Position numbers and translations under genes: made by a program. From contig JBFLXB010000002.1 in NCBI GenBank assembly GCA_040757335.1, forward strand, positions 100,381-164,380: a DNA stretch of 64,000 bases, written 5' to 3'. Positions within the stretch are counted from its first letter, which is position 1. Every line of letters begins with the position of its first letter. Source of the DNA: Nitrospirota bacterium (lineage in GTDB: Bacteria; Nitrospirota; Nitrospiria; 2-01-FULL-66-17). The notes under the pieces are model-generated. The model was given only the letters and a program-made list of their open reading frames with translations. It had not been told where the DNA came from and did no database searches. Of this stretch, positions 37,855 through 57,545 are shown one piece after another.

Positions 37855-37886
37855 TTGACCCTGGACCTAGGTCCAGGGTGTACAGT
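37855..37886 (+). promoter_or_regulatory. MerR-type promoter/operator with perfect palindrome
   Basis: TTGACC (37855-37860) and TACAGT (37881-37886) are separated by a 20-bp spacer, longer than the normal 17 as in MerR-family promoters. A perfect 20-bp palindrome (37859-37878, half-site CCCTGGACCT) fills the spacer. The start codon of the truncated merR begins only 8 bp after the -10 box, so the transcript would be leaderless or nearly so. Confidence 0.8.
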
Positions 37887-37893
37887 GCGCTCG

Positions 37894-38082
37894 ATGAAGC
37901 CCTCGACCATTGGATGGCTTGCCAGAGAAGCGGGTGTCCGGGTGGATACGATCCGCTGCTACGAGCGCCGGGGATTGATCCCGCCGCCCTCTCGGCGCGA
38001 TTCGGGCTATCGGGAATATACGGACTCGGCCCTCGCGCGGGTGCGGTTCATCCGGCGGACAGGGCCGCGACAGGAGCGGTGA
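37894..38082 (+). pseudogene. merR: Truncated MerR-family regulator
   Basis: 62 residues: MKPSTIGWLAREAGVRVDTI, then RCYERRGLIPPPSRRDSGYR and EYTDSALARVRFIRR, then PRQER and stop. The helix-turn-helix and the wing of a MerR regulator are complete. The long dimerisation helix and the metal-binding C-terminus (normally to about 130-145 residues) are gone. A deletion between merR and merA, possibly also removing merT/merP, would explain this. Without the dimer helix it probably cannot twist the operator, so control of merA may be lost or taken over by another MerR. Confidence 0.8.
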
Positions 38083-38088
38083 TCGGCC

Positions 38089-39507
38089 GTGCCACACCTG
38101 ACCGCCGATGATCGATATGATCTGGTGATCCTGGGGTCCGGGTCGGCGGCGTTTGCCGCAGCGATCAAGGCCTCCGAGCTGGGGGCGCGGGTGGCCATGA
38201 CTGAGCGTCGCGTCATCGGCGGCACCTGTGTGAACGTGGGGTGCATTCCCAGCAAGAACCTGATCCGGGCGGCCGAGCTCTACTATGCGCCGGCGCATAC
38301 CACCTATCAGGGCCTGGGAATAAGACGTGGAACGTTGGACTTCGCGGCCCTGATCCGACAGAAGGATCGACTGGTGCAGACACTGCGCCGGCAAAAATAC
38401 ATCGATATTGCTGAGGCGGATGAGAAAATCGCTATCCTAAAAGGTCATGCCCGCTTTCTCTCCAAGCACCAGGTTCAGGTCGGCGATCGGGTGGTGGAGG
38501 CTCCCCGCTTTCTGATTGCGACCGGTTCACGGGCGTGCATTCCTGAGTTTCCGGGAATCGACAAGGTCACGTATCTCACCAGCACCGAGGCCTTTCAACT
38601 CAAGAAGCCGCCGAAGTCGATGGTCATCATCGGTGGGGGCGTGATCGCGCTAGAGTTGGGTCAGATGTTTCACCGATTCGGCACCAAGATCACGATCCTG
38701 GAGCGGGGCGGTCACGTGCTTTTGGGGTTGGACGAGGAGGTGGCTCAAGCGATTCAGCGGATCTTGATCGAAGAAGGCGTGAGGATCGAGACCCATGCGG
38801 CGGTGAGTGAGATCGCTCAAGCGTCCAGGGGGACTGCAGTCACGGCGCAGGTTCAGGGCCGGGCGAGGCGGTTTGTAGCCGAACGGCTGCTGGTCGCCTG
38901 CGGCCGGGTCCCCAACAGCGATGGGATCGGGCTGGAAACCGTGGGAGTCAGAGTGGATCAACACGGCTTTGTGGAAGTCGATCACACGATGCAGACCACG
39001 GCCGACCACATCTGGGCGGCGGGCGATGTGACGGGCCCACCGCTGGCCACGCCGGTGGGAGCTCGTGAAGGGGTGGTGGCGGCCCAGAACATGCTCAGTG
39101 GAAATCACGTCACGATGGATTACACGGTCATCCCCCGGGCGGTCTTCACCGATCCGGAAGTCGCGGCCGTGGGACTGAGCGCAGCCGAGGCCAGAGCACA
39201 GGGAATGCAAGTGGAGGCTGACTGTCTGGACCTCGCCCACTTACCCAAGGCCGCGGCCATCCATCAGACGAAGGGCCTGGTGAAGATGGTGATCGAGCAA
39301 GACACCAAGCGGGTCGTGGGTGTCCAACTGGTCGCGAATCGAGGAGCGGATCTCATCCACGAAGCCGCGCTGGCGGTGAAGTGCCGGCTCACGATCGACG
39401 ATCTGATCGGAACCATCCATGTCTATCCCACCATGTCGGAGGCCATCCGGATGGCGGCCCAGATGTTCACAAAAGATGTGTCAAAGCTATCCTGTTGCGC
39501 GGAGTAA
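38089..39507 (+). CDS. merA: Mercuric reductase lacking the N-terminal heavy-metal domain
   Basis: 472 residues from a GTG after AGGAGCGG. The FAD-binding N-terminus is DLVILGSGSAAFAAAIKA. The redox-active disulfide is Cys47/Cys52 in GGTCVNVGCIPSK. The NAD(P)H-binding block is MVIIGGGVIALELGQMFHR. The chain ends KLSCCAE, the C-terminal vicinal cysteine pair (469-470) that delivers Hg(II) to the active site in true MerA. It reduces Hg(II) to Hg(0) with NADPH in the cytoplasm. The N-terminal HMA domain is absent, as in several chromosomal MerA proteins. No merT/merP transporter is adjacent. Confidence 0.93.
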   Translation: MPHLTADDRYDLVILGSGSAAFAAAIKASELGARVAMTERRVIGGTCVNVGCIPSKNLIRAAELYYAPAHTTYQGLGIRRGTLDFAALIRQKDRLVQTLRRQKYIDIAEADEKIAILKGHARFLSKHQVQVGDRVVEAPRFLIATGSRACIPEFPGIDKVTYLTSTEAFQLKKPPKSMVIIGGGVIALELGQMFHRFGTKITILERGGHVLLGLDEEVAQAIQRILIEEGVRIETHAAVSEIAQASRGTAVTAQVQGRARRFVAERLLVACGRVPNSDGIGLETVGVRVDQHGFVEVDHTMQTTADHIWAAGDVTGPPLATPVGAREGVVAAQNMLSGNHVTMDYTVIPRAVFTDPEVAAVGLSAAEARAQGMQVEADCLDLAHLPKAAAIHQTKGLVKMVIEQDTKRVVGVQLVANRGADLIHEAALAVKCRLTIDDLIGTIHVYPTMSEAIRMAAQMFTKDVSKLSCCAE

Positions 39508-40183: not shown

Positions 40184-40771
40184 ATGGAACGGACCGATCA
40201 CGAGATCGCCCAGGCGAACGACCCCGCGTCGTGGGTGGATCGACACGGAGACGCGCTGTTTCGATTCGCCATGCTGCGCGTTGCGGATCGCGACCTGGCC
40301 GAGGAGCTGGTCCAGGAGACGTACCTGGCGGCGTGGCAATCGAAAGATCGTTACGCGGGACATTCTTCCGAACGCACCTGGCTGGTCGGCATTCTCAAAC
40401 ACAAGATCGCGGACAGCCGTCGCCGCGATCGCGCCCGGCCCGCCGCCGACTCCCTTGAGTCCGACGAGGACGCCGACGAGTATTTCGACGAGCGCGGCCG
40501 CTGGAAGCATCCCCCTGGCGACTGGGGTAATTCGCCCGCCGCGTTCGCCGAAAACCAGGAGTTCTGGAGCGTGTTTTCCCGGTGCTTCGAGCAGCTTCCC
40601 GGCCGGTTGCGGCTGGCCTTTGCGCTCAAAGAGGACGAGGGCCTGGATGGCGAGGCGATCCGTAAGGTTGTCGGTGTTGCGACGACTAATCATGTGTGGG
40701 TCATCTTGTACCGGGCGCGCCAAGCCCTGCGGCGTTGCCTGGAAGTGCACTGGTTTGCTGAGGACCGATGA
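40184..40771 (+). CDS. ECF-type RNA polymerase sigma factor
   Basis: 195 residues. Region 2 lies at about 20-85: DALFRFAMLRVADRDLAEEL, VQETYLAAWQ, ERTWLVGILKHKIADSRRR. After an acidic linker (ESDEDADEYFDE), region 4 lies at about 125-185: LPGRLRLAFALKEDEGLDGE, then VWVILYRARQALRRCLE. This belongs to ECF factors paired with small zinc-binding anti-sigma factors, and the next gene overlaps by 4 bp (ATGA) and encodes one. It likely controls part of the adjacent metal/metalloid locus; its promoter sequence could not be identified. Confidence 0.88.
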   Translation: MERTDHEIAQANDPASWVDRHGDALFRFAMLRVADRDLAEELVQETYLAAWQSKDRYAGHSSERTWLVGILKHKIADSRRRDRARPAADSLESDEDADEYFDERGRWKHPPGDWGNSPAAFAENQEFWSVFSRCFEQLPGRLRLAFALKEDEGLDGEAIRKVVGVATTNHVWVILYRARQALRRCLEVHWFAEDR

Positions 40772-41025: not shown

Positions 41026-41164
41026 TCCCCGCGCCCTGGCTCCCCGGGGCCTGTAAGTTTTCGACCGCGCATACGACTAACCGGTTGCAATCGTCATGTC
41101 GCCTCGATCGGGTGAGGCGGCGCCAGGTGACGTCCCAGCAAGGTCGGAAAGGAGGCCCTACTTG

Positions 41165-43624
41165 ATGTTGACCCATGAGACGGTTTTGCACGTGCCGATC
41201 CGGGAGACCATGACGCTCGACGGCGTGACCGTCCTGCTCGACCCCGCGGGGCCGAACTGGATCGGGACCGACGAGCGCGGCCGGCGGATCCTGGATCTGT
41301 TCGACGGCACGCGGACGTTCGGCCAGGTGGTCCGCGCCTACGCCGCTGAAGCCAAACTGGACTTCGCGGCGGCCTGGCAGCACGTGGACACGCTCGCGCG
41401 CGACGCGATCCGCCGCGGCATGCTGGCCCACCAGCCCATCGCTCGGGAGCCGTATCGCGGGCGCGCGTCGCACCTGGGGCCGCGGCGCCTGACCGAACTC
41501 TGGCTGCACACCAACAATTCGTGCAACCTCGCGTGCAGCCACTGCCTGGTCTCCTCCGGCCCGGACGGCGACAAGGGGCTGCCCACCGACGCGCTCCTGC
41601 GCGTGACCGCGGATGCCCGGGCGCTCGGCGTGCGCCGGTTCTTCTTCACCGGCGGCGAACCGTTTCTCAGAAAAGACATCCTGACGCTCATCGACGCCGC
41701 GCTGGAAGACCCCCAAGCCGAACTGGCGATCCTGACCAACGGTATCCTGTTCACCCCGAGCCGGATCGAGGAGCTTCGTCGGCGCGACCCCGCGCGACTG
41801 AAAATCCAGATCAGTCTCGACGGCTCCATGCCCGAGACCAACGACCCGATCCGCGGGAGGGGGAGTTTTCAGCGGATCGTCAACGGCATCCGTGCCGCAA
41901 TCTCCGCGGGACTGTCGGTCACGGTCAGCACCGTCATCACCGAGGCGAATGCCGATGATGTCCCCGAGGTCACCCGACTGGTCTCGCGCCTTGGCGGGAC
42001 CACGCACCACCTCCTCTGGCTGCACAAGCGCGGGCGCGCGGATGACGGGGGCGTCGATCGCACGCCCCCGGTGGAACGCGTGATCGAGGTGGTGCGTCGC
42101 TGCCGCGAGGTGGGGCGATCCATGGGCGTCATGGTGGACAACCACGAGGCCGTGAAAACCCGGCTCCGATACCCGGCCGGTACCAAGCGCGACTTGGCGA
42201 GCGCCGGGGTCTCCAGCCTCTGCGTCTATTCCGATGGCCAGGTCTACCCCTCGGCCGCGATGGCCAATGTGCCGGCGCTGGCGTGCGGGTCGATCCTCGA
42301 CCGACCCCTGTCCGACATCTGGACGTCGAGCACGGTGGCGCGCGCATTCGCGTCAGCCACGGTCGAAGACAAGGCGATCTGCCGGACCTGTCCGCTCAAG
42401 TTCCTGTGCGGGGGCGGCGACATCGAGCACGCCCACTTTTACGGCGGCTCGATCAACGCGCACGACCCTTACTGCGAGCTGCACCAGGCCATGATCGCCG
42501 ACGCCCTACAGGAGCTGACCGAGCAGCGCAAGGCGCTGGTGACCAACCGCAAGTCCGGGTATTCCGCGCCGATCGTGTACACGGGCATGGGCGAAGCCGC
42601 GGTGACGTGCGCGACCGATGAGACGCCCGGCGAGGTGCTCACCAGCCGGTCCGAGTGCGTCTTGACGTTCGACTTGGACGCCCCGCGCAAGGTCGTCCGC
42701 GAGTTTTACGGCAATGCCGCGGAGACGCCGCAGGAGGAACTCTGTTGCCCCGTGCAACCCAACCCCGACGACCTCGCTCACATCCCCAAGGAAGTCGTCG
42801 AGCGTTTCTACGGGTGCGGCTCGCCGGTGGGCACGGCGGGGATCAGACCCGGCGAGACCACGCTCGATCTGGGCAGCGGCGCGGGTATCGACGTGTTCAT
42901 CGCCGCGAAGAAGGTGGGCCCCACGGGCCGGGCCATCGGCGTGGACATGACGCCCCAGATGCTGGCCGTCGCGCGCGAGGCGCAGAAGCCGGTCGCGGCC
43001 GCCCTCGGATACGACGTGACGGAATTTCGCGAGGGGTATCTGGAGCAGATTCCCGTCGAATCGAAGACGGTCGATCTCGTGACCTCCAACTGCGTCATCA
43101 ACCTGTCGCCCGACAAGCCGCGGGTGTTCGCCGAGATGTGGCGCGTGCTGAAGGACCACGGCCGGATCGTGATTGCCGACATCGTCGCAGACCAGGAAGT
43201 CCCGCCGCACCAGCGCCAAGATCCCAGGTTGTGGGGCGAGTGCATCAGCGGCTCGCTGACCGAGGAAGAGTTCCTGGCGGCGCTGGAACGCGCGGGGTTC
43301 TACGGGCTGCAGGTCCTCAAGAAGACGTTCTGGAAAGAGGTCGAGGGCTTCAGGTTCTTCTCGGTCACCGTACGTGGCTTCAAGTTCGAAAAGACCGCGG
43401 GCTGCGTGTACGCGGGCCAGACCGCGACGTACCTCGGCCCGTTCAAGGGCGTCAGCGACGAGGAGGGCCACTGGTTCCCGCGGAACGTGGCGGTCGAGGT
43501 CTGCACCGACACCGCGGCCAAGCTCTCGCACGCGTCGTACGCCGGGCTGTTCGCGGTCACGGGCGTGACCGGTGAGATCGCTCCCACGGTTGGCGGCTGC
43601 GATCCCGCCTCGGGGTGCTGCTGA
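41165..43624 (+). CDS. PqqD-like / radical-SAM-SPASM / ArsM-like methyltransferase fusion
   Basis: 819 residues from the ATG preceded by AAAGGAGG. Residues about 18-95 form a PqqD-like winged-helix (RRE-like) domain. Residues 110-445 are a radical-SAM core with CNSCNLACSHC-type cluster (Cys120, Cys124, Cys127) and SPASM cysteines (353, 374, 406, 409, 415, 437). Residues about 495-760 match arsenite S-adenosylmethyltransferase: VREFYG, ELCCPVQ (Cys527/528), RFYGCGSPVG, LDLGSGAGIDVF, TSNCVINLSPDK (Cys643) and LWGECISGSL (Cys692). The chain ends GGCDPASGCC. It could methylate and further alkylate arsenic or another metalloid, or modify a peptide through its RRE. No such fusion is known to me; specificity is open. 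Confidence 0.88.
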   Translation: MLTHETVLHVPIRETMTLDGVTVLLDPAGPNWIGTDERGRRILDLFDGTRTFGQVVRAYAAEAKLDFAAAWQHVDTLARDAIRRGMLAHQPIAREPYRGRASHLGPRRLTELWLHTNNSCNLACSHCLVSSGPDGDKGLPTDALLRVTADARALGVRRFFFTGGEPFLRKDILTLIDAALEDPQAELAILTNGILFTPSRIEELRRRDPARLKIQISLDGSMPETNDPIRGRGSFQRIVNGIRAAISAGLSVTVSTVITEANADDVPEVTRLVSRLGGTTHHLLWLHKRGRADDGGVDRTPPVERVIEVVRRCREVGRSMGVMVDNHEAVKTRLRYPAGTKRDLASAGVSSLCVYSDGQVYPSAAMANVPALACGSILDRPLSDIWTSSTVARAFASATVEDKAICRTCPLKFLCGGGDIEHAHFYGGSINAHDPYCELHQAMIADALQELTEQRKALVTNRKSGYSAPIVYTGMGEAAVTCATDETPGEVLTSRSECVLTFDLDAPRKVVREFYGNAAETPQEELCCPVQPNPDDLAHIPKEVVERFYGCGSPVGTAGIRPGETTLDLGSGAGIDVFIAAKKVGPTGRAIGVDMTPQMLAVAREAQKPVAAALGYDVTEFREGYLEQIPVESKTVDLVTSNCVINLSPDKPRVFAEMWRVLKDHGRIVIADIVADQEVPPHQRQDPRLWGECISGSLTEEEFLAALERAGFYGLQVLKKTFWKEVEGFRFFSVTVRGFKFEKTAGCVYAGQTATYLGPFKGVSDEEGHWFPRNVAVEVCTDTAAKLSHASYAGLFAVTGVTGEIAPTVGGCDPASGCC

Positions 43625-44754
43625 TGACCACCGTCCTCCTGATCGGCGCGATCGTGCTCTGGCTGGCTTATGCCAACGGGGCCAACGACAATTTCAAGGG
43701 CGTGGCCACGTTGTTCGGCTCGGGCGCGAGCGAATACCCGGGCGCGTTGCGCTGGGCCACGATCACGACGTTCGCGGGCTCGCTGGCGTCGATCGTGGTG
43801 GCCGCGGGGCTGGTCGCCAAGTTCTCCGGCAAGGGCCTGGTGCCCGATGCCGTGCTGGCCGACTCGGGATTCGCGTCCGCCGTGGCGTTGGCCGCCGCGA
43901 CCACCGTGTTTCTGGCCACCCGCTTCGGGTTCCCGATCTCCACCACCCACGCGCTGGTGGGCGGCTTGGTCGGCGCGGGGCTGGCGGCGCGCGGTCTTGG
44001 GGGGGTGAACCTCGCGTCGCTGGGCACGGCCTTCGTGGCGCCGCTCGTGATCGCGCCGTTGGCCGCCATCGCGCTCACGGCTGCCGCCTATCCGCTCCTT
44101 CACGGGGCCCGCAAGGGTTTGGGGTTTGCGCGAGAGACCTGCGTGTGCGTGGGGGAGGAAGTCCGCGTCATTGCGGTTGAACCGCGCGGGGCACCCCTCG
44201 CGGCGTCGGTCGCCGGCACATTCCCCTCGATCGCCATCGCCGACCCCCAGGAGTGCTTTCAGCGATATGCCGGGCACATGTGGGGGGTGAGCCTCCAAAC
44301 CATTCTGGATCGGCTGCACTACCTGAGTGCGGGGGCGGTCTGCTTCGCGCGCGGACTCAACGACACGCCCAAAGTCGTGGCACTGCTGGTCACGGCGCAG
44401 GCGCTGCACCTGCCGCTCGCGGCCACGATCGTGACCATCGCGATGGCCATGGGCGGCCTGCTCAGCGCCCGACGGGTGGCGGAGACCATGAGCCACCGGA
44501 TCACGGCGATGAACCACGGGCAGGGGTTCACCGCCAACCTGGCCACGGCCTTTCTCGTGATCTGGGCCTCGCGCTGGGGGCTGCCGGTCTCCACCACGCA
44601 CGTCTCCTGCGGCGCGCTGTTTGGGATCGGCGCGGTCACGGGGCAGGCTCGTTGGAAGGCGATCGGCTCGATCGCCCTGGCGTGGATCACGACGTTGCCG
44701 GTCGCGGCGGTGTTGGCCGCGGCCGCCTATTACACCATGGGCGGTCAGGGTTGA
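43624..44754 (+). CDS. PiT-family inorganic phosphate transporter
   Basis: 376 residues; its ATG shares one base with the previous stop (TGATG). The duplicated PiT signatures are present: ANGANDNFKGVAT near the N-terminus and ARGLNDTPKVVALL in the second half, each followed by a PISTTHAL or PVSTTHVS block. About ten membrane segments surround a cytoplasmic loop with ETCVCVGEEVRV. PiT carriers take up phosphate as metal phosphate with protons or sodium and admit arsenate less selectively than Pst systems. Placement directly after an ArsM-like enzyme invites a link to arsenate entry or phosphate competition, unproven. Confidence 0.92.
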   Translation: MTTVLLIGAIVLWLAYANGANDNFKGVATLFGSGASEYPGALRWATITTFAGSLASIVVAAGLVAKFSGKGLVPDAVLADSGFASAVALAAATTVFLATRFGFPISTTHALVGGLVGAGLAARGLGGVNLASLGTAFVAPLVIAPLAAIALTAAAYPLLHGARKGLGFARETCVCVGEEVRVIAVEPRGAPLAASVAGTFPSIAIADPQECFQRYAGHMWGVSLQTILDRLHYLSAGAVCFARGLNDTPKVVALLVTAQALHLPLAATIVTIAMAMGGLLSARRVAETMSHRITAMNHGQGFTANLATAFLVIWASRWGLPVSTTHVSCGALFGIGAVTGQARWKAIGSIALAWITTLPVAAVLAAAAYYTMGGQG

Positions 44755-44785
44755 GACGAGCACTCTCAGCGCGGAGCTCTGCATA

Positions 44786-45550
44786 GTGAGACCGTCGAAC
44801 GTAGTGACGAGCGATCGGAGAAACGGAGGGGCGAGGCCGGGCCCGCATCGCGCGGTGCGGGGCGGGCCGTTGCTCGGCAAGCTGGCGATCCTGGCCCTCT
44901 TCGTGGTGGGCGTGACCGCGTTCTTCTACTTCGACCTGGGGCAATACCTCTCCCTGGCCGCGCTCAAGGCGAACAAGGATGCGCTGCGAGCCTACACCGA
45001 GGCGCACTATGCCGCGACGGTCGGGTCGTATATCGTGATCTACTGCGCACAGACGGCGCTCTCGCTTCCCGGTGCCGCGATTCTGACGCTCACCGGCGGA
45101 TTCCTCTTTGGCACGCTGTGGGGCACCGTGTACGTGAATCTCGCCGCGACCTCGGGTGCCGCGCTCGCGTTTCTCGCGGCCCGGTACCTGCTCCGGGACG
45201 CGGTCGAGCGCAAATTCGGCCCGCGGCTGGCGTCGATCCAGCGCGGGTTTGCTCAGAATGCGTTCAACTACCTGTTGACGCTGCGCCTGATCCCGCTCTT
45301 TCCGTTCTTTCTCGTCAATCTGGCGTCGGGATTGACGCGGGTCCGGCTCTCCACGTACGTGGCGGCGACCGCGGTGGGGATTCTGCCCGGCAGCGCCGTG
45401 TACGCCAATGCGGGCAGCCAACTGGGGGCGATCGAGTCGCTCAAGGACGTGGTATCGCCCGGTGTGCTGGGCGCCTTTGCGCTCCTCGGGGGCCTCGCGC
45501 TCGTCCCGGTGATCTATCAGAAACTGCGACGGCCATCGCCGGTCCGGTAG
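44786..45550 (+). CDS. TVP38/TMEM64 (DedA-superfamily) membrane protein
   Basis: About 254 residues if the GTG at 44786 (GGAG nine bases upstream) is used; GTGs at 44804 and 44855 are alternatives. The conserved core is ALSLPGAAILTLTGGFLFGT, then SGAALAFLAARYLLRD, then FNYLLTLRLIPLFPFFLVNL, typical of SNARE-associated/TVP38 proteins with re-entrant loops. Genes of this family often lie beside FAD-dependent mercuric-reductase-like genes, as here two genes downstream. Their substrate is unknown; lipid or small-molecule movement is suggested for the superfamily. Confidence 0.88.
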   Translation: MRPSNVVTSDRRNGGARPGPHRAVRGGPLLGKLAILALFVVGVTAFFYFDLGQYLSLAALKANKDALRAYTEAHYAATVGSYIVIYCAQTALSLPGAAILTLTGGFLFGTLWGTVYVNLAATSGAALAFLAARYLLRDAVERKFGPRLASIQRGFAQNAFNYLLTLRLIPLFPFFLVNLASGLTRVRLSTYVAATAVGILPGSAVYANAGSQLGAIESLKDVVSPGVLGAFALLGGLALVPVIYQKLRRPSPVR

Positions 45551-45592: not shown

Positions 45593-46372
45593 ATGGATCG
45601 ACCATCGGCAATCGGCTGGACGAGTCACGCCGGTGCCTGGACGCTGTTCGCAATCGTGGCGCTGGTCGTGGCGGGGGCAGCGCCTTTCGCGGGTCCTGCC
45701 GCGGCGGATGACGCGCTGATCGTGGGCGCGTTCTCCTCCGCGCCCGAAGGTCCCGATCCTCCGCCGGGGTGGAAGCCGCTCACGTTCAAGAAAGTGCCCA
45801 CCCATACCGCGTACGCCGTCGTGCGCGACGGAGACCGCACGGTGGTGCGCGCGGACAGCCGCGCGGGCGCGTCGGGGCTCACGCGCGAGGTGGCGATCGA
45901 CCTCAAGGAGTATCCCATCGTTGCGTGGCGGTGGAGGATCGCCAACGTCATCGCCAAGGGCGACGTGACGAAGAAAGCCGGCGACGACTACGCGGCGCGG
46001 CTCTACATCACGTTTGCGTACGACCCCGACAAGGTCAGGTTCTCCAAGAAGGCCAAGTACAAGGCTGGCCGGCTTCTGTTCGGCGACATCCCCATCGGCG
46101 CGATCAACTACATCTGGGACCGCCGGACGCCGCAGGGGACGATCGTCCCCAACGCGTTCACCGACTTCGTCAAGATGATCGTGGTCGAATCCGGTGACGC
46201 CGATGTCGGCCGCTGGATGGAAGAAGAGCGCAACCTCTACGAGGACTACCGGCAAGCGTTCGATGAGGAGCCGTTGCTGGTCAACGGCGTCGCGATCATG
46301 ACCGACACCGACAACACGGGCGAAGCCGCCACGGCGTACTATGGCGACATCGTGTTCAAACGAGTCCGGTGA
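45593..46372 (+). CDS. Exported DUF3047 protein
   Basis: 259 residues with a signal peptide (hydrophobic 16-36, AAADD cleavage region). The DUF3047 pattern is clear: GWKPLTFKKVPTHTAYAVV, then LKEYPIVAWRWRIANVIAKG, then GDDYAARLYITFAYDP, then INYIWDRRTPQGTIVPNAFT and a terminal GEAATAYYGDIVF. The fold is probably a carbohydrate-binding-like beta sandwich in the periplasm. Function is unknown. It lies in the same run between the TVP38 gene and the FAD reductase. Confidence 0.85.
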   Translation: MDRPSAIGWTSHAGAWTLFAIVALVVAGAAPFAGPAAADDALIVGAFSSAPEGPDPPPGWKPLTFKKVPTHTAYAVVRDGDRTVVRADSRAGASGLTREVAIDLKEYPIVAWRWRIANVIAKGDVTKKAGDDYAARLYITFAYDPDKVRFSKKAKYKAGRLLFGDIPIGAINYIWDRRTPQGTIVPNAFTDFVKMIVVESGDADVGRWMEEERNLYEDYRQAFDEEPLLVNGVAIMTDTDNTGEAATAYYGDIVFKRVR

Positions 46373-46443
46373 GGCGAAAGGGCCCGCCAGCGAGCGGCAC
46401 GCTTGATGAGCCGAGGCGAGACGGAACGGGGGGCACGGTGACG

Positions 46444-48000
46444 ATGGTCAATCACGACGGCGCAATGCTCCTTCCGGACGATGAGCACAACCGCCTGCTC
46501 GTCAGCAACGTGCACCCGCCGGACTGGGTCAACCCGGAGCCCGCGGGCCGCTACAACCTCGTCGTGATCGGCGCGGGCACGGCCGGCCTGGTCACGGCCG
46601 CGATCGCCTCGGCGTTGGGCGCCAAGGTCGCGTTGATCGAAAAGCATCTCATGGGCGGGGACTGCCTCAACGTCGGGTGCGTGCCGTCCAAGGGCGTGAT
46701 CTCGGCCTCGCGCGCGTGGGCCGCGGTCCGGGACGGCGCGGAGTTCGGGATTTCGGGGACCGAGGGGGTCCGGTACGACTTCGGCGCGGCGATGGAGCGG
46801 ATGCGCAAACTCCGGGCCCGGATCAGCCCGGTCGATTCCGCGCACCGTTACCAGAGCCTGGGCGTGGACGTCTTCATGGGCGAGGGACGGTTCACCGGGC
46901 CTGACACCGTCGAGGTCACGGGCGAGGCCGGCAACCGGACCCTGCGCTTCAAGAAGGCCGCGATCTGCACGGGCGCCCGCGCGACTGCGCCGCCGACTCC
47001 GGGCTTGAAGGAAGCGGGCTACTTGACCAACGAGACCGTGTTCACGCTCACCAGCCTGCCCCCTCGTCTGGCGGTCATCGGGGCTGGGCCGATCGGCTGC
47101 GAGCTCGCGCAGGCCTTTGCCCGGTTCGGCAGCCAAGTCTACCTGGTCGAGGCTCTGCACGGCATCCTGCCCAAGGAAGACCGCGAGGCGGCGGACATCG
47201 TCCGCGAATCCATGCAGCGCGACGGGGTCCGCCTGCTGTGCTGCGGCAAGGACCTGAGGATCGACAAGACCGGCGGCGGCAAGCGACTGACCGTGGACTC
47301 GCACGGGCAACACTACGACCTCACGGTGGATGAAGTCTTGGTCGGGGTCGGTCGCGCGCCCAACGTGCAGGGCCTCGGGCTGGACACGGTCGGCGTGGGG
47401 TACGACACCACGAGCGGCGTGAGGGTCAACGAACGCCTGCAGACAACCAACCCCAAGATTTTTGCCGCCGGTGACGTCTGTTCTTCCTTCCAGTTCACCC
47501 ACGCGGCCGATGCCATGGCGCAGATCGTGATTCAGAACGCGCTGTTTCCGCATCCGCTCGGATTGGGCTATGCGAGCACCGCCTCGCTGATCATTCCGTG
47601 GGCTACCTACACCGATCCGGAGATCGCCCATGTCGGCCTGTACGAGGCGGAAGCGAAGAGCCGGGGCATCGAGGTGGACACGTTCACGCACCGCCTCGAC
47701 GAGGTGGATCGCGCGATTCTGGACGGGGAGGAGCAGGGCTTTGCACGCGTCCACGTGAAAAAGGGCACGGACAAGATCCTGGGCGCCACGATCGTGGCCG
47801 CGCACGCGGGCGACCTGATCAGCGAACTGACGGTCGCGATGAAGGCCGGGCTGGGCCTAGGCGCAATCGGCGCCACGATCCACCCGTATCCCACCCAGGC
47901 CGAGGTCGTCAAGAAGGTGGCGAACGCCTGGCGCAAGACCACATTGACCGAGGGCAAGAAAAAGGCCCTTCGCCGGTGGTTTGCTTGGAGCCGTTACTAA
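46444..48000 (+). CDS. Mercuric-reductase-like FAD disulfide oxidoreductase
   Basis: About 518 residues from the ATG at 46444; a GTG at 46438 or one overlapping the previous stop at 46369 is possible. FAD motif VVIGAGTAGLVTAAIA, redox disulfide GGDCLNVGCVPSKGV, NAD-binding LAVIGAGPIGCELAQAF, and the dimerisation end HPYPTQAEVVKKVANAWRKT. The C-terminus KKALRRWFAWSRY has no vicinal cysteines, so this is not a true MerA. It belongs to the family commonly associated with TVP38 proteins. The electron acceptor is unknown; a thiol-bound metal(loid) or quinone is possible. Confidence 0.88.
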   Translation: MVNHDGAMLLPDDEHNRLLVSNVHPPDWVNPEPAGRYNLVVIGAGTAGLVTAAIASALGAKVALIEKHLMGGDCLNVGCVPSKGVISASRAWAAVRDGAEFGISGTEGVRYDFGAAMERMRKLRARISPVDSAHRYQSLGVDVFMGEGRFTGPDTVEVTGEAGNRTLRFKKAAICTGARATAPPTPGLKEAGYLTNETVFTLTSLPPRLAVIGAGPIGCELAQAFARFGSQVYLVEALHGILPKEDREAADIVRESMQRDGVRLLCCGKDLRIDKTGGGKRLTVDSHGQHYDLTVDEVLVGVGRAPNVQGLGLDTVGVGYDTTSGVRVNERLQTTNPKIFAAGDVCSSFQFTHAADAMAQIVIQNALFPHPLGLGYASTASLIIPWATYTDPEIAHVGLYEAEAKSRGIEVDTFTHRLDEVDRAILDGEEQGFARVHVKKGTDKILGATIVAAHAGDLISELTVAMKAGLGLGAIGATIHPYPTQAEVVKKVANAWRKTTLTEGKKKALRRWFAWSRY

Positions 48001-48280: not shown

Positions 48281-48613
48281 ATGAACGCCAAGACGAGAAA
48301 AAACGCTGTCGGGTCGTCCGCGCTGTTGGTCGCATTGAGCCTGGCAGGAGCCCAGACCGCGGCCGCCGCACCGCCGATGCCGGAGATGCCCGCCGGTTGG
48401 GAGGCCTGCGGGGGCGTGGCCCGGGCCGGGATGAACGACTGCGCGGTCAAGACCAGCCTCCATTCCTGCGTGGGCTTGGCGAAGAAAGACGGCGAATCCG
48501 ACTCCTACGTCTTTCTGCCGAAAGGCATGTGCGCCAAGCTCGCGAACGGCACCGTGCTGCCCATTACCAAAGAGGACTTGGCCAAAATGAAAGAGATGAT
48601 GAAGAAGATGTAG
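48281..48613 (+). CDS. bufA: Bufferin-type RiPP precursor (DUF2282, BufA1-like)
   Basis: 110 residues; AAAGGAGA precedes the ATG. The signal peptide is about 1-30 (ALLVALSLAGAQTAAAA). The core holds four cysteines in the BufA1 arrangement: WEACGGVARAGMNDC (Cys43, Cys54), SLHSCVG (Cys63) and PKGMCAKL (Cys84). In known bufferins these cysteines are oxidised by an MNIO enzyme to thiooxazole-type groups, and the exported peptide buffers copper. The C-terminal tail EDLAKMKEMMKKM is rich in Met and Lys; I do not recall such a tail as typical of the family. The following three genes complete a bufferin operon. Confidence 0.9.
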   Translation: MNAKTRKNAVGSSALLVALSLAGAQTAAAAPPMPEMPAGWEACGGVARAGMNDCAVKTSLHSCVGLAKKDGESDSYVFLPKGMCAKLANGTVLPITKEDLAKMKEMMKKM

Positions 48614-48624
48614 GGCGGCGCCCG

Positions 48625-49470
48625 ATGTCTTCTCACCTTCCCGCCCCGATCCCGGCGCAGGCCGGGATCGGGCTGCGGTCTCATCATTTTCGCGAGATCC
48701 TGGAGGCGCCCCCTCCGGTCGCCTGGATGGAAACCCATCCGGAGAATTATTTCGGGGATGGGGGCGCGCCGCTTCGGATTCTCGAGCGCATCAGGAGCCG
48801 GTACCCGCTGAGCTTTCACGGGGTCGGTCTCTCGCTGGGTTCCACCGATGCGATCGACCGCAGCCATCTTCACAAACTCAAGGCCTTGATCGACCGCTTC
48901 GAGCCGGCATTCGTGTCAGAGCATCTCTCCTGGAGCTCCGTGGGCGGTCGTTTTCTCAACGAGCTTCTGCCGCTCCCGTACACCCCGGAAAGCCTGGATC
49001 ACGTCTGTGCACGGATCGACGAAGTTCAGAATGTCTTGAAGCGGCCGCTGCTCATCGAAAATATCACCCGGTATCTGACGTGGCGGGACTCCACCGTGCC
49101 GGAGGGAGCGTTCATGGCCGAGGCGGCCCGGAGAACCGGTTGCGGGATTCTGCTCGATCTCAACAACGTGTACGTCAACGCGATCAACTTCCACCTGGAT
49201 CCACTCGATGTCCTGCGAGAGATTCCGGCTGAGGCCGTCCGGGAAATCCATCTGGCGGGCTTCGATCGCTTCGGCAGACGGCTGATCGATACCCACGGCC
49301 AGGTCGTGCATCCGGACGTCTGGAACCTGTATCGGTGGGCGATCGACCGCATCGGCCCGCGGCCCACGCTGATCGAATGGGATACCAATCTCCCGCCGCT
49401 TGCGGTGCTGGCGGACCAGGCCAATCAGGCGGACACCATTCTCGGAGCATGCCATGTCACGGCTTCGTGA
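48625..49470 (+). CDS. bufB: MNIO-family (DUF692, MbnB/BufB-like) peptide-modifying enzyme
   Basis: 281 residues from the ATG 11 bp after bufA. It is a TIM-barrel of the multinuclear non-haem iron oxidase family. Candidate iron ligands and conserved blocks are HPENYFG, SFHGVGLSLGS (His65), SEHLSW (Glu99, His100), LIENITRYL (Glu145), LLDLNNVYVNA (Asp178), REIHLAGF (His209), DTHGQVVHPDVW (Asp222, His224) and LIEWD (Glu251). It should convert cysteines of the BufA precursor to oxidised heterocycles using O2. It overlaps bufC by 17 bp. Confidence 0.93.
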   Translation: MSSHLPAPIPAQAGIGLRSHHFREILEAPPPVAWMETHPENYFGDGGAPLRILERIRSRYPLSFHGVGLSLGSTDAIDRSHLHKLKALIDRFEPAFVSEHLSWSSVGGRFLNELLPLPYTPESLDHVCARIDEVQNVLKRPLLIENITRYLTWRDSTVPEGAFMAEAARRTGCGILLDLNNVYVNAINFHLDPLDVLREIPAEAVREIHLAGFDRFGRRLIDTHGQVVHPDVWNLYRWAIDRIGPRPTLIEWDTNLPPLAVLADQANQADTILGACHVTAS

Positions 49471-50230
49471 GATCCAGCGGACGTTTTCCGAGGGAGTCAT
49501 GGAGGGAAAACCCCACGCCGTGGCAGCGGCGATCGCGCCCGACGGGTCGGCCCTGCGGAGCGTGGCTCTCTACCGCCGTCTGATCCGTCTCAACTACACG
49601 CAGGTGCTGAAGGTCACCTATCCGGTCCTGTTTCGCTTCATCGGCGAACACTATTTCGGAATATTGGCGCGAGGGTACCTCAAAGCTCATCCCTCCACCA
49701 GCGGGGACCTGTTTCCCTACGGGCGCCATCTGCCCGCGTTTCTCAGAGCCCTGCGGGTCTCCCCGCTGCTGCCGGAACTGGCGAGGCTGGAATGGGCCTG
49801 CCATGAGGTCCATCAGGCCGCAGATTCCCCGCCACTGTCAAGCGAAGAACTTCAGGCTATCGCGTCGGTCGATCCGTCGCACGTGACGGTCCGCTTTCAT
49901 GCGGCCTCGCGACTCCTGTCTTTTCCTCTCCCGGTCCAGCGAGTCTGGCTGGCGCTGCAAGCGGAGGCGCCGGCGGATGAAGTCGTGGACCTGCCGCTTC
50001 CCGAGGAAGAGACCGGCGTGATCGTGACGCGGGCGGACGGGAAGGTGCGGGTCACGCCGCTGGCCAGCCTGGACTACCGGCTGCTTGAGGCCATGTCACG
50101 GGGAGTCGATCTGGCTTCGGTCGAACGAATGGCGATCGAGTCCGAGCCCGAGTTCGATTTCTCCCGGTTGTTTGCCACCGTTCTGGATCTGCACATCATC
50201 AGCGGGTTTTCCGTCAGGGAGAAGCCATGA
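49454..50230 (+). CDS. bufC: DUF2063 partner protein of the MNIO enzyme (BufC-like)
   Basis: 258 residues from the ATG at 49454 (MSRLREIQRTFSEGVM), inside the end of bufB. The N-terminal DUF2063 domain has ALYRRLIRLNYTQVLKVTYP, FRFIGEHYFGILARGYLKAH and GRHLPAFLRA. The C-terminal part (GVIVTRADGKVRVTPLASLD) forms a wing-like domain that in MbnC/BufC proteins recognises the precursor peptide. It forms a complex with the DUF692 enzyme. Its stop overlaps the DoxX gene by 4 bp. Confidence 0.92.
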   Translation: MSRLREIQRTFSEGVMEGKPHAVAAAIAPDGSALRSVALYRRLIRLNYTQVLKVTYPVLFRFIGEHYFGILARGYLKAHPSTSGDLFPYGRHLPAFLRALRVSPLLPELARLEWACHEVHQAADSPPLSSEELQAIASVDPSHVTVRFHAASRLLSFPLPVQRVWLALQAEAPADEVVDLPLPEEETGVIVTRADGKVRVTPLASLDYRLLEAMSRGVDLASVERMAIESEPEFDFSRLFATVLDLHIISGFSVREKP

Positions 50231-50730
50231 CACAGGATGCCGGTGTTCTGAAGCGCGCGGCGCATTTCACCGTCTCCGCCCACGGCGGCCTGGTTCGACT
50301 GCTGGAGGCGCTGATTCCGGTCTTCGACCTCTCTGTCCGCCTGTACCTGGCTCAGATCTTCTGGAAGGGGGGCATGGTCAAAATCTCCAGTTGGATGTCG
50401 ACCGTGATGCTCTTCACCCTGGTCTACGACGTGCCCTACCTGCCGCCGGAAATCGCCGCGTATCTGGCGACCGCGGTGGAGCTCGGAGGATCGTTCCTGC
50501 TGGCGATCGGCCTGGCCGGACGATGGGCGGCCCTCTCGCTCTTCGGGCTCAATATCGTCGCTTCGATCTCGTACGGTCAGTTGTCCGAGGCCGCCCTGAA
50601 AGAGGCGTTCTATTGGGGCGTTCTCTTCCTGTACTTGGTCCTGCACGGACCAGGACTGCTCTCGGCCGACGCCCTGTTGCGCTATTGGTTCGGACGAAGG
50701 CAAGTGGCGGGTGACAAGGGTGTATCCTGA
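50227..50730 (+). CDS. bufD: DoxX-family membrane protein (BufD-like)
   Basis: 167 residues in ATGA overlap with bufC. About four membrane helices: VRLYLAQIFWKGGMVKI, LFTLVYDVPYLPPEIAAYLA, LGGSFLLAIGLAGRWAALSL, FYWGVLFLYLVLHGPGLLSA. This is the DoxX fold that forms the fourth gene of bufferin operons. It may supply electrons or assist export; its exact job is not established. Confidence 0.88.
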   Translation: MTQDAGVLKRAAHFTVSAHGGLVRLLEALIPVFDLSVRLYLAQIFWKGGMVKISSWMSTVMLFTLVYDVPYLPPEIAAYLATAVELGGSFLLAIGLAGRWAALSLFGLNIVASISYGQLSEAALKEAFYWGVLFLYLVLHGPGLLSADALLRYWFGRRQVAGDKGVS

Positions 50731-50862
50731 CGCGCCGCTCGTTGCCGGTGTCGGCACGCAGCCCTTGGCCTCGCCGTTCTGAGCACGGAGTGACGCTGAC
50801 CATGACGCCGGAAGAACGAAGGCTGGAAGAGTCAAGGACCCGGATCGCGCATTGGCGGCGCT

Positions 50863-50967
50863 GGGGACCGCAGTCCCCGCAGCATGCTGCGGTGCAAGCG
50901 AGCAACATGAAGACCGTGCTCCTTCACCACCTTGCACTCCGAAAATTCCCCGCAGCCCGCTGCGGGG
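50863..50967. repeat. Cluster of three hairpins downstream of the bufferin operon
   Basis: Three inverted repeats lie in the 284-bp gap before the debranching-enzyme gene: GGGGAC/GTCCCC (50863-50878), a 16-bp perfect palindrome CCGCAGCATGCTGCGG (50877-50892), and a 9-bp stem CCCCGCAGC/GCTGCGGGG (50948-50967). The last resembles a common intergenic repeat in metal-rich soil and sediment bacteria. They may end or stabilise the buf transcript; no T-tract follows. No gene is seen in the gap. Confidence 0.6.
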
Positions 50968-51014
50968 AGCTTCAATAGTCAACAGGAATCGAAATCCGTG
51001 AGCCGCGAAGCGTC

Positions 51015-54551: not shown

Positions 54552-57539
54552 ATGGCTCCTTCACCAGACCGGCACGGCGTACTCTTTGCCGCCAAAACCA
54601 CCCGCCCCAAGCTCCCGCGGATTCTCGCCCGGAGACACTGCCTTGACGCGCTGAACAGCGCACACGGTTGCAAGATTCTCTTCATTTCCGCTCCCGCGGG
54701 CCAGGGCAAGACCACCTTGGCTCTCTCCTGGTTGAAAGAGAGCCGCACCAAGGCCGTGTGGCTAAGCCTTGACGAGACGGATAATGACCCGGCGGGGTTT
54801 TTCCCGCTGCTGGCCGAGGGCTTTGCCGTCGCATTTCCGAGCATCCAGTTCGACCTTCCACCGCTGCCGACTACCGCCCCGTTCGACCCGGCGGCGTTTG
54901 CGCGGACCTACTGCCAGCGATTGTTTGCCCAGGCCACCGGTCGGTACGCCCTCGTGTTCGACGATTTTCACACCCTCCGGGAGGACGGCCCGATCCCGTC
55001 GATTCTCAGTGCCTTGCTGGACGCCCTGTCCCCGTCGGTGCAGATCGTCCTCCTATCGCGGAGCCTGCCGCCGGACTTTCTGGCCGGCTGGATCGCCAAA
55101 CGCCAACTGTTTCTTGTTGATCAGGCGCTCCTGCGATTTTCCGTTGGCGAGACCCACGGGCTGTTCGAACAGGTGCTGGGTGTGCCGACTACCCGCGAGC
55201 AGGCTGAGGCGATTCATGACGTGACCGAAGGATGGGTGACCGGAATGATTCTCTTACGGGAGGGAGGCCGTGCCACCGGCTCGTTCCTTGAGGGGCCGAT
55301 TCAACCGTCCGCTGCGGGCGATCATTTGGCGGATTATTTGTATCACGAGGTCTACCGACGGCTGGAGCCGGCGGTGCAAGATTTCATGGTGCGGACCTCG
55401 TTCTTTGAGGATTTCTCCCTCAAATCGCCTGGCACTCTCGGCACGTCCGGCAACGCGGAGTCCATGATTCGCATCTTACTGAGGCACCATCTCGTAGTGG
55501 AGATCGCCACGGGTGAAGGACGACGCTTTCGCTACCACGCATTGTTGCGCGAGTTCCTACAGACGCGAGTTATGGCCCTTGGGGAGGGTGAACGCGGCGC
55601 ACTGGTCCAGGAGGCTGCGGCCGTCCTCTTGGCCGAGGAGCGGGCGGAACAAGCCGTGGACCTGTATCTGAGTTACCGGCTGTACGAGCCCGCCATGGCG
55701 CTCATCGAGCAGATCAGCTTGGGCGCGGTGTTTCAAGGCAAGCGTATGACGCTGCGCCAGTGGATCGGCTCCATTCCGCCCGCTCGTATTGAAGGGCGTC
55801 CCTGGCTGGCGTACCTGCTCGGCGCGGGGCAAGAGTTTGTCGCGCCCCAGGAGGCGGAGGTCTGCTACCAGCGGGCGCTGCAAGGATTTGAAGCAGCGGG
55901 GGATCCGGAAGGCCAACTCCGGGCGCTCGGGTCATTGATCGTCCTGGGGTTTTGGCGCGGGCACGACTTCCGGCCGCTCAAGGAGTATACCCGGCGTGGA
56001 AGGACCCTCCTCAAGAGGTATGGGCGTACCTGTTCACCGATTGCTCGCACCCTCTTTCTCCTTGCCAGTGGTTTTAGTGCGACGTATGGTCACAATGATG
56101 CACAGCTCGGGATTCGGGCCCTTCTGGCCGCAGCGGCCCTGGCCCGGCAACACGGGCTCCTCCCCTTGTTCGTCTCCGCGATGTCCAATGTCGGGACTGC
56201 GGCCATGTACGCCGGGCAGTTTCAACTCGCCAAACGCTGTTTTACGGAAGCCGAGCAAGCCGTTCCTTTGGAGCGGTTGGATCCGATCTTCTCGAGCCAA
56301 TTGCTCGGGTGTCGAGGAGTCGTCGAGTCATTTCTGGGTGAGACGGAAGCGAGCTTGGCGTCTCTGATCGAGGCGGAACGCATCTGCCTGGCCAACGGAC
56401 TGGTCACCGTACTCCCGTTTGTGCAAACCAACCTGGCCCGCCATCGCATGGTGATGGGGGAGACGGAGGCGGCGGCCATCTTCGCACCCATCCGCCACCA
56501 AGTCCTCCAAGGGGGCAACCGGTATTTCGGCGCCTTCACGTTCTATTGCGAGGCGCTCGGCTTTCTCTCGACCGGACAGTTGTCTCAGGCCCTGAGCCAC
56601 GTCCAAGAGGCGGATCGTCTCCTGGCGGCGTGCGGCAGCCCGTTGTTTCACAGTCTCAACAGGTATCTGGTCGGCGTGGTCTTGGGCGAGATGGGCGAGA
56701 CACGAGAGGCCGAGCGGAATCTGCTGGCCGCGCTGCGCGGCCTGGAACAGAGCAACAGCCAGTTCTTTGTCTTCTGGGTCCTGCTCCAGTTGGCCAAGGT
56801 GGCCTTGGATCAGCACAACGAGAAGAAGGCCAAAGCCTATCTGGCCCGGGCGCTGAAGTTTGGAAAGACCGAAGAGTACAAAGAGGCCGATGGACTCCTT
56901 CCACGGACCAAGTCGATCCTGGTGAACCGAGCCCTGGAGTGGGGCTTGGAGCCGCCCTATGTCCGGCGGCTGATGGCGCACTGGAAGGTGACCCCCACGA
57001 TCGCCCTGAAGATCCACACCCTGGGCCGGTTTGAGGTGCGGCTGCACGACCAGCCGGTGCCGCCGGAGGCCTGGAAAGGGCGAAAGACCCTGCAGCTCTT
57101 GCTGGCCCTGCTGACCTTGGGCGGCAAGCAGGTGCCCAAGAGCCGGATCAGCGACCTGCTCTGGCCCGAGGCTGAGGGGGATCGGGGCGCGACGAATTTT
57201 CATACCACGCTGTACCGGCTCCAGGCCGTGCTGGGCGGCTCGCGAAATAACGGGACCGGGATCATCACGCTCACCAGCGGCTCTGTGTCCGTGAATCCCA
57301 CGCAGTGTTGGTCGGACTGCTGCGCGTTTGACGATGCGGTGCAGCAGGCCAAGCAGGCCGAGCGCCGCGGCCGGTGGAGCGAGGGGAAGCAGCATCTTGA
57401 ATCGGCGCGGGCGTTGTATCAGGGCGAGTACCTGCCGGGGTTCGAGGAGGCGTGGATCGTCTCCCGACGCGAGGCGTTGCAGCGGCAGTGGCTCTGGGTC
57501 GAACAGCAACTCACAACGCCCGCAACGCCGGGGAGATAG
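54552..57539 (+). CDS. STAND-ATPase/SARP transcriptional regulator, tandem copy A
   Basis: 995 residues. The N-terminal MalT-like NTPase has Walker A APAGQGKTT at 47-55, Walker B ALVFDDFHTL and sensor block VTEGWVTGMILL. A long TPR sensor region covers about 380-815. An OmpR/SARP-type winged helix follows from about 823 (TLGRFEVRLHDQP, KGRKTLQLLLALLTLGGKQV, LLWPEAEGDRG), then a BTAD domain to the end (ARALYQGEYLPGFEEAWI). ATP- and ligand-driven oligomerisation probably activates nearby promoters. GAGGAGTGGGG precedes the ATG. It is followed after 6 bp by a second copy with near-identical 3' end. Confidence 0.88.
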   Translation: MAPSPDRHGVLFAAKTTRPKLPRILARRHCLDALNSAHGCKILFISAPAGQGKTTLALSWLKESRTKAVWLSLDETDNDPAGFFPLLAEGFAVAFPSIQFDLPPLPTTAPFDPAAFARTYCQRLFAQATGRYALVFDDFHTLREDGPIPSILSALLDALSPSVQIVLLSRSLPPDFLAGWIAKRQLFLVDQALLRFSVGETHGLFEQVLGVPTTREQAEAIHDVTEGWVTGMILLREGGRATGSFLEGPIQPSAAGDHLADYLYHEVYRRLEPAVQDFMVRTSFFEDFSLKSPGTLGTSGNAESMIRILLRHHLVVEIATGEGRRFRYHALLREFLQTRVMALGEGERGALVQEAAAVLLAEERAEQAVDLYLSYRLYEPAMALIEQISLGAVFQGKRMTLRQWIGSIPPARIEGRPWLAYLLGAGQEFVAPQEAEVCYQRALQGFEAAGDPEGQLRALGSLIVLGFWRGHDFRPLKEYTRRGRTLLKRYGRTCSPIARTLFLLASGFSATYGHNDAQLGIRALLAAAALARQHGLLPLFVSAMSNVGTAAMYAGQFQLAKRCFTEAEQAVPLERLDPIFSSQLLGCRGVVESFLGETEASLASLIEAERICLANGLVTVLPFVQTNLARHRMVMGETEAAAIFAPIRHQVLQGGNRYFGAFTFYCEALGFLSTGQLSQALSHVQEADRLLAACGSPLFHSLNRYLVGVVLGEMGETREAERNLLAALRGLEQSNSQFFVFWVLLQLAKVALDQHNEKKAKAYLARALKFGKTEEYKEADGLLPRTKSILVNRALEWGLEPPYVRRLMAHWKVTPTIALKIHTLGRFEVRLHDQPVPPEAWKGRKTLQLLLALLTLGGKQVPKSRISDLLWPEAEGDRGATNFHTTLYRLQAVLGGSRNNGTGIITLTSGSVSVNPTQCWSDCCAFDDAVQQAKQAERRGRWSEGKQHLESARALYQGEYLPGFEEAWIVSRREALQRQWLWVEQQLTTPATPGR
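56771..57507 (+). repeat. Long direct repeat, copy 1 (3' end of regulator A)
   Basis: This 737-bp stretch is collinear, without any gap that I can find, with 59768-60504 (constant offset 2997). It has only scattered substitutions, many of them silent. Similarity of the two genes falls sharply upstream of it. Confidence 0.85.
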
Positions 57540-57545
57540 GGCTGC

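Follow-up and report, generated by a model that had tools for sequence, protein, structure and literature searches.

One gene in the 64,000-nucleotide window (the whole stretch of Nitrospirota DNA that was analysed) encodes a PqqD-like domain, a radical-SAM core, a SPASM domain and an ArsM-like methyltransferase in a single polypeptide, and this fusion, judged from a comparison of genomes, appears to occupy the place of ArsS: ArsS is absent, its partner glycosyltransferases are present, and the surrounding genes belong to the same cluster. We think it probable that the protein is a bifunctional arsenosugar-entry enzyme, which would convert As(III) to dimethylarsenite, then add a SAM-derived group (probably 5'-deoxyadenosyl), and so replace the pair of ArsM and ArsS. 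The literature we found names only two radical-SAM enzymes that form C-As bonds: ArsS (TIGR04167), which adenosylates arsenic in oxo-arsenosugar synthesis, and ArsL, which transfers a 3-amino-3-carboxypropyl group in arsinothricin synthesis (PMC12159101; PMC8552651). The fusion points to another family. A preliminary description of this DNA knew of no example with such an order of domains, and the literature on radical SAM/SPASM proteins with ArsM or arsenite methyltransferase likewise gave no published account of one.

The gene is open for 819 codons and encodes one protein with a C-terminal GCC, as the preliminary description had read it, and a ribosome-binding sequence precedes the frame (Table 1). 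The cluster cysteines it had placed at 120, 124 and 127 form a CX3CX2C motif within a Radical_SAM match of 92.9 bits (Pfam cut-off 29.5), and the SPASM cysteines it had noticed lie at 353, 406, 409, 415 and 437, the auxiliary ones thus included, in a protein whose SPASM match scores 27.0 bits against 21.5. Its ArsM-type motifs with their thiols, RFYGCGSP, TSNCVINLSPDK and LWGECISGS, do align with ArsM crystal structures; the PDB entries match residues 494-800 with an E of 7.6e-45, and Pfam places a methyltransferase domain at residues 561-711. The PqqD-like assignment held in part: the PqqD score (PF05402) of 22.7 bits is under the 23.4 cut-off, whereas a distant homologue of the type B described below clears it at 34.1 bits, and the AlphaFold model has three strands and three helices there in a winged-helix pattern. 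The model was made from 34 sequences (mean pLDDT 83.9, pTM 0.76), and Foldseek returns CmArsM first for it (E 3e-22) and then, for the radical-SAM part, SkfB, CteB and SuiB.

Table 1. Positions in the window of the fusion gene, its parts and its neighbours
Feature	Position	Strand	Basis
ECF sigma factor, just upstream of the fusion; homologues near 9/29 fusion loci	40184..40771	+	
Zinc-finger anti-sigma factor, 85 aa	40768..41025	+	
Shine-Dalgarno-like AAGGAGG; the ATG at 41165 follows after 9 nt	41149..41155	+	direct sequence reading
Fusion gene, PqqD-like - radical SAM - SPASM - ArsM, 819 aa, ends GCC	41165..43624	+	ORF, domain searches, model
PqqD/RRE-like winged-helix domain, residues 22-87; below cut-off in the window protein, backed by fold and homologue	41228..41425	+	Pfam, model
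Radical-SAM core, residues 118-272; CX3CX2C = C120, C124, C127 at 41522-41545	41516..41980	+	Pfam, alignment
SPASM domain, residues 350-410	42212..42394	+	Pfam, alignment
Cys498, candidate substrate thiol of the radical-SAM half	42656..42658	+	invariant in 35/35 fused and unfused homologues
ArsM-like methyltransferase, residues 527-800; C551, C643, C693 invariant; CC at 527-528	42743..43564	+	NCBIfam, PDB, alignment, Foldseek
PiT/PHO4-family anion transporter, overlaps the fusion end; also beside the other two source-genome copies and at most Elusimicrobiota loci	43615..44754	+	
C-terminal Cys-Cys tail	43616..43621	+	present in 21/21 type A fusions
TVP38/VTT membrane protein, seen repeatedly in clusters of the fusion and of ArsS	44765..45550	+	
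DUF3047 protein, seen repeatedly in clusters of the fusion and of ArsS	45593..46372	+	
FAD-dependent disulfide oxidoreductase (NF004991), seen repeatedly in clusters of the fusion and of ArsS	46369..48000	+	

Searches against the ArsM, ArsS and ArsL families, which the preliminary description had proposed as a check, confirmed an ArsM fold and sequence but left the cut-offs for ArsS, ArsL and curated ArsM unreached. The best NCBIfam match of the protein is the arsenite methyltransferase PRK11873 (NF008823; 231.6 bits, under 263), and the ArsM domain also misses NF038099 (154.5 against 400) and NF040538 (206.3 against 500). On the ArsS model TIGR04167 the window copy scores 47.2 bits and its homologues reach no more than 79.3, the cut-off being 300, with matches at model positions 2-151 only; ArsL (NF040542) is absent among the best 25 NCBIfam families for the window protein. 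True ArsS membership is ruled out by the TIGR04167 score and by the tree given below; the radical-SAM half would be a SPASM-type enzyme that stands in the place of ArsS.

An assembly error, which the preliminary description had named as a possible origin of the fusion, is ruled out because full-length relatives are found in many genomes and further copies in the source genome itself. Full-length homologues with 46-91% identity occur in 12 other MAGs, one of them (L003) with an in-frame stop, and full-length relatives are spread over Nitrospirota, Elusimicrobiota and Planctomycetota. The source genome (G000, 99% complete) has three diverged copies, the other two with 88-89% protein identity, and each copy, on contigs C2, C18 and C47, is followed by a PiT transporter. 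The plasmid collection gave partial ArsM or radical-SAM matches only and no full-length fusion, and the viral structure library gave nothing useful for the fusion protein. Among 296 Nitrospirota genomes, the radical-SAM family (E <= 1e-35) is present in 26: ten with fusions like the window protein (type A, which also includes L111), 11 with more distant fusions that show 33-37% over the radical-SAM half (type B, of which L126 is a piece), and five, all of family f13, with an unfused gene. No setting other than ArsM-fused or f13 was found for this family in the 296 genomes.

The distribution of ArsS and of the glycosyltransferases TIGR04282 and TIGR04283, whose "arsenosugar" label comes from NCBI family names and curation, bears on what the fusion does. 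ArsS over cut-off was seen in none of the 13 fusion genomes examined first, TIGR04283 in all 13 and TIGR04282 in 10; in the searches that named the control Synechococcus elongatus, it alone of 14 named control genomes was over the cut-offs of these families. Among the 296 Nitrospirota genomes, the 15 carriers of type A or of the f13 form (10 fused, 5 unfused) have ArsS in 0/15 and TIGR04283 in 15/15. TIGR04283 and ArsS are strongly linked overall in these genomes (p = 1e-40, kinship ignored), and among the TIGR04283-positive ones type A/f13 and ArsS are mutually exclusive (Fisher p = 3e-14, uncorrected for kinship). Swaps are seen within single families as well, with the fusion in G141 and ArsS in G283 of f4, and the fusion in G275 and ArsS in G173 and G243 of f7. 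In 150 Elusimicrobiota genomes, TIGR04283 is over cut-off in all four carriers (none with ArsS) versus 3 of the 146 others (p = 1.7e-6). Most of the genomes are MAGs, so the absence of ArsS could come from incompleteness; the pattern is consistent nonetheless. Fourteen TIGR04283-positive genomes have neither ArsS nor the type A or split form, and the glycosyltransferase is therefore not strictly dependent on them. Type B fusions coexist with ArsS in 5/11 genomes, so that the architecture alone is no sign of ArsS replacement; because of this coexistence, and since they mostly lack the cluster, type B proteins probably have a function different from that of type A.

The gene neighbourhoods of fusion and ArsS loci have in common PiT, TIGR04283, TIGR04282, TVP38, the FAD oxidoreductase, DUF547 and DUF3047. 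At 16 Elusimicrobiota fusion loci, PiT and TVP38 were each found 13 times, TIGR04283 11, the FAD oxidoreductase 10, TIGR04282 8, and DUF547 and DUF3047 5 times each, and the ArsS genes in L202, L206, L207, L259 and L269 are flanked by subsets of the same genes. The unfused radical-SAM gene of f13 overlaps or abuts TIGR04282, and its ArsM adjoins TVP38 and TIGR04283. Ten of the 29 type A loci, several Nitrospiria ones included, are without any cluster gene within about 11 kb, and the 64 kb window contains no glycosyltransferase, the copies of the source genome being on other contigs.

Each of the two halves was placed by a quick tree (SH-aLRT support only). In the methyltransferase tree, the type A, type B, f13 and f12 domains group with the Nitrospira ArsM that is adjacent to ArsS, and ordinary ArsM, including the two stand-alone copies of the source genome, is set apart with a support of 99. 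The preliminary description had looked to such a tree for the C-terminal domain; its kinship with ArsM is upheld for the ArsS-paired kind, not for the ordinary kind. In the tree of the radical-SAM half, a single group (96) takes in type A, type B and f13, with ArsS well removed from it (100). Two Elusimicrobiota genomes show that ArsS itself has also become joined to ArsM, with the domains ordered alike: G584 has a true ArsS-ArsM fusion with an open frame of 747 residues (L259:3436-5676, minus strand) in a cluster with the FAD oxidoreductase, TVP38 and DUF547, and G411 has part of another with 85% identity, truncated where the contig ends (L260:2-1489, plus strand), beside TIGR04282 and TIGR04283.

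Two other radical-SAM genes were noticed near ArsM in the course of these comparisons. In L183 (7755-11682), L180 and L187, the type B fusions start with MAKxCC, have a PqqD match above the cut-off and are followed by a conserved, BchE-like B12-binding radical-SAM gene of ~493 aa; it is possible that this pair represents a distinct organoarsenical pathway. In some Elusimicrobiota, a third, short radical-SAM gene (best match the Rv1681 family) overlaps ArsM, and a TIGR04283-like gene follows (L250:2411-3415 and L270-L273).

The cysteines of the fusion are conserved to very different degrees. The CX3CX2C motif is intact in 34/35 homologues, the remaining one being masked there, and all 35, unfused proteins included, keep Cys498, which lies where the radical-SAM half ends. 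The As(III)-site cysteines 551, 643 and 693 are retained without exception by the 21 type A and the 10 type B proteins, C528 is found in all 31, and every type A fusion ends with CC at 818-819. The SPASM auxiliary cysteines 406, 409, 415 and 437, on the other hand, are missing from the Elusimicrobiota group and, through a separate loss, from the Nitrospiria homologue L106, the GGG close by being kept. The loss of the auxiliary cluster would fit a chemistry that uses the SAM-cleaving cluster only, such as a radical addition to As(III).

For the fusion protein we infer the catalysis, the order of steps, the product and a transfer between thiols as follows. SAM-dependent methylation of As(III) by the C-terminal ArsM domain would come first and most probably lead to dimethylarsenite; a second SAM would then be cleaved by the N-terminal radical-SAM domain, and the fragment that it delivers to the trivalent arsenic would most likely be 5'-deoxyadenosyl. 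C498, C527/528 and the C-terminal CC, all invariant thiols, may hand the arsenical from one site to the other, and the fusion could keep this reactive trivalent species bound to thiols of the protein. What results would be an intermediate of the type produced by the separate enzymes ArsM and ArsS, and the TIGR04282 and TIGR04283 glycosyltransferases encoded elsewhere in the source genome would process it. The preliminary description had offered two functions, an organoarsenical made by the ArsM and radical-SAM parts in sequence, or a metallopeptide; the comparative evidence supports the former well and points to arsenosugar entry as the likely pathway, and for the latter no support was found.

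It may be helpful to set the fusion beside known systems. The arsenosugar entry by ArsM and ArsS in Synechocystis is alike in combining ArsM-type methylation with a radical-SAM partner, in the co-occurring glycosyltransferases and in cluster neighbours; the fusion, however, is one polypeptide, and its radical-SAM half, which is of the SPASM type and comes with a PqqD-like domain, stands in a separate clade and matches TIGR04167 in the core only. The ArsQML pathway of arsinothricin (ArsL NF040542; ArsM NF040538) also pairs ArsM with a C-As-forming radical-SAM enzyme, but the radical-SAM half does not have ArsL among its nearest matches, the ArsM domain reaches 206 of the 500 bits required, and no arsQ-type cluster was seen. 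With ordinary ArsM (PRK11873/NF008823; CmArsM 4fs8) the window domain has in common the fold, the As(III)-site cysteines and about 35% identity to CmArsM; it differs in being fused, in falling below the NCBI cut-off and in clustering with ArsS-paired ArsM. The RRE-bearing SPASM peptide maturases (PqqE, CteB, SkfB) and NirJ2/AhbD relatives are nearest by sequence and fold, with the layout winged helix - radical SAM - SPASM, yet the fusion is far below every SPASM family cut-off, is joined to ArsM and can dispense with the auxiliary cysteines. The ArsM-AhpD and ArsM-DUF2284 selenoproteins (NF041537, NF041536) likewise have an ArsM-like domain fused to another domain, but their partners are unrelated to radical SAM, and the window protein scores far below their cut-off.

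Among the other explanations, it is conceivable, though rather unlikely, that the product is a different organoarsenical, with the radical-SAM half transferring another SAM fragment (e.g., 3-amino-3-carboxypropyl) or acting before ArsM as in arsinothricin synthesis, where the radical-SAM step comes first and methylation second (PMC8552651). Neither model nor tree makes the radical-SAM half an ArsS, so that homology does not tell which fragment is transferred, and the type B relatives, which adjoin a B12-radical-SAM gene, may make something else. The co-occurrence with TIGR04283 and TIGR04282 and the cluster in common with ArsS nevertheless speak for arsenosugar entry, as does the similar cluster around the true ArsS-ArsM fusion; moreover, the radical-SAM half of the L011 homologue has no match to ArsL (NF040542) at E <= 1e-12 in NCBIfam.

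We consider it improbable that the protein serves methylation-detoxification only, of As or of Sb or Se, with a radical-SAM half that is vestigial, structural or acting on another metalloid. ArsM alone is sufficient to detoxify arsenic, SPASM cysteines are missing from many homologues, and the MerA-type neighbours suggest a metal-stress island; still, CX3CX2C is kept wherever it can be read, the radical-SAM family persists unfused next to TIGR04282, the source genome already carries ordinary-clade ArsM as separate genes, and nothing was found that points to Sb or Se. About as improbable is a PqqD/RRE-like domain that binds a peptide, giving an arsenic-bearing or cross-linked peptide, as the fold similarity to peptide maturases and the downstream bufferin-type precursor cluster (DUF2282-like, MNIO bufferin maturase, DUF2063-like and DoxX-like genes at 48281-50730) might suggest: the fusion has no precursor gene directly beside it (a gap of about 140 bp upstream, PiT overlap downstream) and no conserved precursor was found, MNIO is within 11 kb at 2/29 loci only, at least two losses have removed the auxiliary-cluster cysteines with CX3CX2C kept, and the unfused form beside the glycosyltransferase gene has the PqqD-like region too.

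If arsenosugar entry is the right reading, predictions of arsenosugar capacity from genomes would change, because a search for ArsS alone misses the carriers of the fusion. These carriers, groundwater and sediment Nitrospirota and Elusimicrobiota, belong to phyla not noted as arsenosugar makers in the literature we found. A single protein that methylates and then alkylates would also offer a compact system for studying the hand-over of a toxic trivalent arsenical between active sites. On a wider view, which we hold with evenly divided confidence, a non-orthologous, SPASM-derived family of C-As radical-SAM enzymes would have replaced ArsS repeatedly and would act, in one chain with an ArsM of its own, as an arsenosugar-entry synthase; counting type B and the short Elusimicrobiota partner, at least three radical-SAM families would have been recruited beside ArsM, some perhaps for new organoarsenicals.

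The window has several other genes of interest. The MNIO bufferin maturase mentioned above scores 367 bits over a cut-off of 310, and L011 and L271 also have an MNIO gene, close to the fusion in the former and to the third radical-SAM gene in the latter. A short frame at 50742-50978 resembles the start of a ~896-aa glycoside-hydrolase-like gene of L005 and L006 and looks like a remnant. Upstream, at 37855-39507, a short MerR-like frame precedes a mercury(II) reductase (TIGR02053, 547 bits against a cut-off of 454) that lacks the N-terminal metal-binding domain, and at 54552-60509 there are two large, related genes in tandem, of 995 and 988 aa, which resemble ATP-binding regulators of the LuxR/MalT type.
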